DNA of 33,859 nucleotides from Mesorhizobium sp. Its GTDB lineage: Bacteria > Pseudomonadota > Alphaproteobacteria > Rhizobiales > Rhizobiaceae. Positions 21,354-21,520 of this stretch are shown here, piece by piece (the stretch's first letter is position 1; every line of letters begins with the position of its first letter). Where the stretch lies: assembly GCA_004017535.1 (NCBI GenBank), contig SAJS01000033.1, forward strand, positions 1-33,859, in the 5' to 3' direction. The notes under the pieces are model-generated. The model searched no databases and was not told where the DNA came from. It worked only from the letters and a program-made list of their open reading frames with translations. The position numbers and the translations under genes were made by a program.

Positions 21354-21402
21354 GCAGTAGGGAGTAGGGAGTAGGGAGTAGGGAGTAGGGAGTAGGGAGT
21401 AG
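21354..21402 (+). repeat. Tandem heptamer array GGAGTAG (left arm)
   Basis: Six perfect head-to-tail copies of GGAGTAG occupy 21361-21402, preceded by a variant copy GCAGTAG at 21354-21360. The array begins about 16 bases after the dehydrogenase stop codon. Confidence 0.95.
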
Positions 21403-21450
21403 GGAATGAGGCTCTTGCGTCCGGCCATTCAGCACTGACCATCTCCTACT

Positions 21451-21520
21451 GCCTACTGCCTACTGCCTACTGCCTACTGCCTACTGCCTACTGCCTACTG
21501 CCTACTGCTTACTGCCTACT
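21451..21520 (+). repeat. Tandem heptamer array GCCTACT (right arm)
   Basis: Ten head-to-tail heptamers are present: nine perfect GCCTACT and one GCTTACT (21507-21513). The heptamer is the reverse complement of AGTAGGC, one base different from the AGTAGGG phase of the left array. The two arrays can therefore fold into a long hairpin with one G-G mismatch per repeat. It ends 22 bases before the kinase start codon. Confidence 0.95.

Follow-up and report, generated by a model that had tools for sequence, protein, structure and literature searches.

Facing arrays of seven- and eight-base units form a dispersed family of gene-end hairpins in Mesorhizobium and its relatives

We find that a pair of facing heptamer arrays between a dehydrogenase gene and a kinase gene of Mesorhizobium sp. 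is one copy of a dispersed hairpin family, found mainly in Hyphomicrobiales, that stands directly behind stop codons and is built from 7- or 8-base units of the approximate form T-R-G-B-S-A-R. Members of the family have a gene-end position, a fixed polarity and largely locus-specific loops, and their arms differ in copy number. They are retained at the same site across species, in several cases across genera, and where the unit changes, the arms and the loop tend to change together. The window, by which we mean the whole stretch of DNA analysed (33,859 nucleotides; contig SAJS01000033.1), comes from a genome of 6.86 Mb in 73 contigs, hereafter the own genome, whose ribB has its closest named relatives in Mesorhizobium.

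The kinase-site hairpin lies between an SDR-family short-chain dehydrogenase gene (20610..21338, plus strand; open reading frame, Pfam PF00106, E 7.8e-56) and an FGGY pentulose kinase gene (21543..23150, plus strand, ATG at 21543; NCBIfam TIGR01315, 699.6 bits against a cut-off of 408.7, and Pfam FGGY_N/C). Together with a periplasmic binding protein, an ATPase and a permease upstream, these genes look like a sugar-uptake operon. The first-pass annotation had described seven heptamers on the left, a gap of 48 bases and ten units on the right, and both the sequence and Tandem Repeats Finder bear this out. The left arm (21354..21402, plus strand) is the TAG-type strand and reads GCAGTAG at 21354-21360 followed by six GGAGTAG at 21361-21402; the loop takes up 48 bases (21403..21450, no strand given); and the right arm (21451..21520) is a TAGGCAG array on the minus strand, with nine GCCTACT units and one GCTTACT (at 21507). 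Tandem Repeats Finder gave 21338-21405 for the left array (period 7, 9.7 copies) and 21445-21523 for the right (period 7, 11.3 copies, score 151). A start about 16 bases after the stop codon, as previously annotated, holds for the intact units at 21354, but the arm really begins directly after the SDR stop codon (21336-21338), the left border of the hairpin, as degenerate outermost units (GGCAGTAGGAACTAG; 21339..21353, plus strand) that pair with the outer right arm in the fold. An assembly artefact is excluded by three single-contig relatives (G004, G080 and G091) in which this site likewise has facing arrays. We note that a minus-strand open frame (20298-21428), which is likely spurious, crosses the left arm and overlaps the SDR gene.

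The arrays had been proposed to fold into a hairpin of about 50 bp with one mismatch per heptamer. The hairpin and its single mismatch per GGAGTAG unit (six in all) stand, but the main stem of the minimum free energy fold is longer, at 56 pairs, since the outer ends pair too. The RNA fold has an energy of -121.1 kcal/mol, compared with -80.3 (sd 5.1) for shuffled sequences, none of 200 of which was as stable (z about -8); the DNA fold reaches -62.5 (z -8.2). Outside the main stem lies GAGG (21532..21535, plus strand), the likely Shine-Dalgarno sequence of the kinase, and GAGG occurs within 20 nt of the kinase start in 24 of 29 loci. A classical intrinsic terminator was rejected because no T-run directly follows the stem: by eye, the right arm is followed by GCCCCACTTCTGAGG, and a terminator scan of 20000-33859, which accepts only loops of 3-8, returned none after the stem. 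A known Rfam family was also rejected, as Rfam 15 gave no matches in the window at gathering score.

A second hairpin in the window (32381-32501; TGGTGAA class, fold z -9.4) separates the chorismate synthase gene aroC (31288..32385, plus strand, profile matches) from a bifunctional ribB/ribA-like riboflavin gene (32521..33621, plus strand, profile matches). Its left arm (32381..32415, plus strand) reads GGTGAGT GGTGAAT GGTGAGT AGTGAAT GGT, with the aroC TGA stop (32383-32385) falling within the first heptamer, and its right arm (32447..32501, minus strand) consists of TTCACCA-type units. By eye, the AroC frame enters the array in many relatives, where the repeat provides the last codons and the stop. 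A box, GCGAGCGAAGCGAGC, stands directly before the riboflavin gene at 32502-32516. Of 79 relatives, 42 have it unaltered, and altered but still recognisable forms occur in many others, among them two of the three array-less loci. Many octamer-type loops at this site carry a T-rich run (e.g. TTTTTTCCTTTTCCC) before the right arm.

We searched for further copies with a degenerate pattern of three TRGBSAR units, allowing at most one mismatch and using the reversed pattern as a control. The own genome has 56 forward and 56 reverse places and none for the control, with overlapping matches within one array counted separately in these genome-wide counts. The units fall into the classes TAGCGAR/TAGGGAR, TGGTGAA/TAGTGAA and TAGGCAR, and octamers of the form TARGGSAR add a further 25 + 23 places. 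When the window and an unbiased 400-kb genome sample were scanned for arrays of period 4-14 at the chosen threshold, only periods 7 (three), 8 (three) and 14 (three) appeared, the last presumably being the period-7 arrays again. The evidence that periods besides 7 and 8 are missing consists of six arrays in 434 kb, of which two (ATGATTCC) are outside the family. The same scan of mononucleotide shuffles found no arrays. At L004 5701-5954, two equal-length direct (ATGATTCC)n arrays of this non-family octamer surround about 100 N at a scaffold gap.

Within the taxonomic family, 66 of the 199 genomes sampled have at least one match to the pattern, as do 46 of the 109 genera, with a patchy distribution within genera. 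A phylum-wide draw found it in 42 of 299 genomes, most of the high counts belonging to the same order, with exceptions such as G334 (14 + 10); matches outside the order are few and sporadic and often on one strand. The reversed control is zero in nearly all genomes and nonzero in a few (e.g. G259, G492), and we therefore give little weight to small counts outside the order. In four genomes (G259, G492, G363 and G239) the control matched more than the pattern itself, which indicates that other repeat families exist there. Some contigs start inside arrays (L004 1-75, on own contig C4; G276 C32, C54 and C60; G310 C63; G030 C11). Because assemblies break at some of these octamer and heptamer arrays, our hairpin counts are lower bounds.

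Placement was examined in 74 clusters among the places listed in three genera of the taxonomic family: 26 in the own genome (stretches around the places listed, plus the window), 26 in G182 and 22 in G276. Genes were called by codon usage, with a simple caller trained on five genes of the window. The clusters lie between co-directional (46) or convergent (28) gene pairs and never between divergent ones, against a background of 192/51/51 co-directional, convergent and divergent pairs taken from the 400-kb sample of the own genome only. A stop codon is found within 120 bp of 72 of the 74 clusters, and in 65 it is within 20 bp or overlapping; the signed median from array edge to stop codon is 5.5 bp. 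Stop codons in all frames were rejected as a general reason for this placement because pure TGGCGAA arrays (in G293) contain none. Both arms were found at this pattern in 53 clusters, with one arm only in the other 21, and the TAG-type arm comes first in 53/53. Such a fixed polarity would suit a function at the DNA level, in which a cruciform or single-strand hairpin is bound by a protein that sets the unit vocabulary, as would the spread of the pattern over the sampled genera, the about equal numbers of G-T and A-C mismatches and the strong DNA fold. BIME/REP sites of enterics bind gyrase or IHF. The tie to stop codons and the absence between divergent genes point instead to transcripts, and we regard a DNA-level function as unlikely.

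The two sites in the window were then compared among relatives. For the kinase site, 30 loci were fetched and 29 counted, own included, after removal of one that meets a contig end without the SDR gene (L023). Facing arrays are present in 28 of these, the remaining locus (L046) having a plain 22-nt gap. The units at this site are seven bases long (TAGGCAG, TAGTGAA, TAGCGAA and TGGTGAA) or eight (TAGGGGAG and TAGGGCAG), and both kinds are scattered over the flank tree. For aroC-ribB, we took the 80 best among 487 relatives (all Mesorhizobium apart from two records whose title is only bacterium), and 79 loci were left once L273, without aroC, was set aside. Facing arrays occupy 76 of the 79, and in a few they are degenerate, with arm-arm scores of 18-54; the other three have neither arms nor loop, with gaps of 30 and 30 nt in L257 and L261 (M. 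amorphae) and 21 nt in L310. Since array-less alleles exist at both sites, no single hairpin copy is essential. A comparison of 97 gene ends across genera, at a minimum of 50% identity over 70%, gave 13 matches. Nine distinct sites, several of which have another unit class, are common to the own genome and G276, for which 26 and 22 clusters were sampled, compared with a chance expectation of about 0.1 shared sites by our own estimate for genomes of some 6000 genes.

The main rival to a functional reading is renewal without function: tolerated, self-renewing repeats that change by slippage, are copied from arm to arm or locus to locus, and survive where they are least harmful, between stop codon and Shine-Dalgarno sequence. 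Purifying selection would give the same placement, and the array-less alleles, with gaps of 21-30 nt, are also as this explanation would have them. Retention at 76/79 and 28/29 loci and at nine gene ends across genera nevertheless seems to exceed what neutral decay would leave, unless renewal is very active. We consider renewal without function a serious candidate that is probably, though by no means safely, wrong.

The view of the first-pass annotation that copy number can change is borne out across species, as CTACTGC copies range from 3 to 12 among the 14 species with that unit at the kinase site. Its further suggestion, that copy number alters the distance between the two genes, fails if the hairpin folds. 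We measured the SDR-kinase gap in 27 species, own included, leaving out L035 (Ns) and L046 (no arrays). The raw stop-to-start gap is 97-204 nt (mean 139, sd 23), and the remainder outside the arms, whose borders are approximate, is 12-43 nt (mean 23, sd 7). Because this remainder is close to the array-less gap in L046, a hairpin folded in the message would be nearly invisible to gene spacing at any copy number, a neutrality that suits the tolerated repeats as well. Nor can spacing be the general purpose of the hairpins, since the same hairpins close convergent genes. We see very little prospect for a phase-variation switch in which copy number tunes kinase expression. The spread of right-arm units across the 14 species would be expected of such a switch, but copy number changes stem length and not folded spacing, housekeeping genes (aroC and the riboflavin gene) also adjoin such hairpins, and the 74 clusters sit behind genes, not between divergent ones.

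The two arms of a hairpin tend to change together. Arm periods at aroC-ribB are (8,8) in 42, (7,7) in 22 and other in 13 of 77 loci, own included. Changes between 7 and 8 on the ribB tree number at least 22 in the left arm and 14 in the right; the tree is a quick one in which 22 of the 78 inner branches reach a support of 95, and the test used the 65 rows out of 77 that carry both labels. Supported branches provide 11 independent pairs, of which on average 8.1 show the right arm shifting with the left, 0 show it shifting the opposite way and 2.9 show no difference in it (median p 0.008). At the same site, own arms pair better than species-swapped arms (40.9 vs 34.2; best of 5000 permutations 36.7), with arms split by purine/pyrimidine balance, which divides some loops between the arms. 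Among 43 octamer alleles, with units numbered from the loop and the true register uncertain, units match in 32/43 (phi 0.52) for pair 1-1, 28/43 (0.23) for 2-2, 23/34 (0.09) for 3-3 and 12/18 (0.27) for 4-4, and shifted pairs match in 28/43 (0.39) for 2-1 and 30/37 (0.58) for 3-1.

Loops follow the unit class too. Loop identity at aroC-ribB is 0.66 within and 0.53 between classes, a difference reached in 0 of 1000 permutations with kinship not controlled; for this test, as for the linkage tests at the site, mixed or unlabelled alleles were left out and at most 66 rows kept. Hence it appears to be the entire hairpin allele that changes as one unit. A query with the kinase-site loop in 119 genomes gave 12 matches better than E 1e-6, all at SDR-kinase; weaker matches elsewhere are mostly repeat, although a few extend into the loop itself, among them one in G002 (79% over positions 11-66). 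The TAGTGAA-type loop occurs in 3 of the 119 genomes, each time at the SDR-kinase site. A MITE with a conserved interior was rejected, as strong loop matches occur only at the same site. In the SDR-kinase flanks, only the third base of the last codon tracks the TAGTGAA class (3/4 loci). In the aroC-ribB flanks, class-flank r2 is slightly above that of permuted labels, but linkage between SNPs is just as low (about 0.05-0.07 at more than 3 bp), and this favours neither recombination exchange nor in-place rewriting. One further proposal is that gene ends own a standing hairpin and that a dedicated non-RAYT machine writes TRGBSAR-type units into both arms with fixed polarity and can switch the whole hairpin from 7- to 8-base units, such that form and place would be inherited and sequence would not; we think this improbable. 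The order of variant units at unlinked loci is somewhat more alike within a genome than between genomes (0.745 vs 0.709, a difference attained in 4 of 1000 permutations). This is suggestive of copying from locus to locus, as the tolerated-repeat explanation predicts.

Arm mismatches show no G-U bias on the coding strand between co-directional genes (G-U 53 vs A-C 56) and none between convergent genes (58 vs 65). Those at the kinase site, which are not independent, favour A-C (55) over G-U (22), with L035, L046 and L021 left out. The lack of RNA wobble bias again agrees with tolerated repeats. Our preferred reading is that of a REP-like 3'-UTR hairpin that is grown by slippage, swapped as whole alleles and kept as an mRNA stem behind the stop codon. 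We put its chances as evenly balanced, because there is no preference for G-U over A-C and the pairing-covariation tests are undecided; the functional part is an inference. Under the REP-like reading, the arms would lengthen and shorten by replication slippage, alternative hairpin alleles would be exchanged whole between related species by recombination, and selection would keep a stable mRNA stem just behind the stop codon, as with REPs. The stem might block 3'-to-5' exonucleases or end part of the transcripts, in either case protecting the upstream message. The Shine-Dalgarno sequence of the next gene would be left free of the stem, and folding would keep the stop-to-start distance short. 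A 3' roadblock of this kind, whether by message protection or partial stop, fits both co-directional and convergent contexts.

The first-pass annotation held that no known element type explains the arrays, but the facing heptamers of Xanthomonas (PMC4692102) and a satellite of M. ciceri (PMC6749651) are known from the parts of those studies used here. As described there, the GGGAATC arrays of Xanthomonas face each other next to stop codons, and two genomes have 70 and 75 convergent pairs; the mean distance to the neighbouring ORF on the 5' side is 28 nt, 7-8% are between divergent ORFs, and 83% of sites are common to two species (PMC4692102). They are mostly transcribed, and transcript starts and stops are commoner in the G-quadruplex-able group than among control repeats (PMC4692102). 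On this partial account, they are the nearest described thing to the rhizobial hairpins, with the same build, place and cross-species site conservation. Both have tandem heptamer units in facing arrays, one per strand (in rhizobia with the TAG-type arm first in 53/53). The rhizobial arrays, too, are close behind a stop codon and absent between divergent genes (0/74), and GGGAATC, rotated, is one base from rhizobial TAGGGAA. The rhizobial hairpins have octamers besides, whereas the part of the Xanthomonas study cited describes neither octamers nor unit switching in both arms (PMC4692102). That part presents its arrays as G-quadruplex repeats, a motif that only 4/79 rhizobial hairpins fit (1/20, 0/19, 0/14 and 3/26), and we therefore rejected the G-quadruplex as a common rule. 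The left arm in the window carries one such motif. Heptamers also occur as the STRR repeats of heterocystous cyanobacteria, which are purine-rich and lie between genes.

M. ciceri has its own (AGGGGAGT)2 octamer satellite family, Fam_19_16_7, whose unit is the octamer found at aroC-ribB; it is given as a satellite, and the part of the source cited makes no mention of pairing, gene-end placement or unit switching (PMC6749651). From similarly partial accounts, the TAACTGA heptamers of Beggiatoaceae are intergenic, with stops in all frames and some overlapping stop codons, but they are direct repeats, most of which face start codons; the main genome has 169 direct sets against one indirect (PMC4679880). 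Nostoc has only a few paired repeats (PMC4692102). REPs of the GTAG and CGTC families are described, in the part of the source used, as dispersed extragenic palindromes of 20-40 bp in sequence families with a tag, many of them downstream of coding regions and thought to be RNA elements; the GTAG ones are RAYT-associated and the CGTC ones apparently without transposase (PMC3733652). Like REPs, the rhizobial hairpins are extragenic and 3' of genes, and many of their units contain GTAG. Unlike REPs, their arms are tandem units of variable length around mostly locus-specific loops. The RAYT domain Y1_Tnp (PF01797) has no match in the own genome and is absent in 15 of 20 hairpin-bearing genomes (own among the 15); it is present in 5/20 pattern-positive and 4/27 pattern-negative genomes. 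As far as PF01797 shows, we rejected a RAYT-borne REP, and movement by a RAYT transposase has next to no chance of being the explanation.

Heptamers are the most abundant longer simple-repeat class in most genomes of one survey, and as of 2015 there was no detailed literature on heptamer repeats, according to the portions cited (PMC4679880, PMC4692102). The literature searched, which included few subscription papers, gave no description of the rhizobial family, its gene-end rule or its two-arm unit-length switching, and the six unit strings, in the portions of text covered, matched only work on human cells. The unit turns over, yet the hairpins keep their place, polarity and pairing, and each site is sequenced in dozens of species; the question of function or tolerated parasite is thereby testable site by site. 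The hairpin family also provides a natural series in which to follow slippage, the homogenisation of arms and the exchange of alleles. Should the hairpins protect or end messages, they would be a layer of 3'-end control in rhizobia that has gone unannotated.
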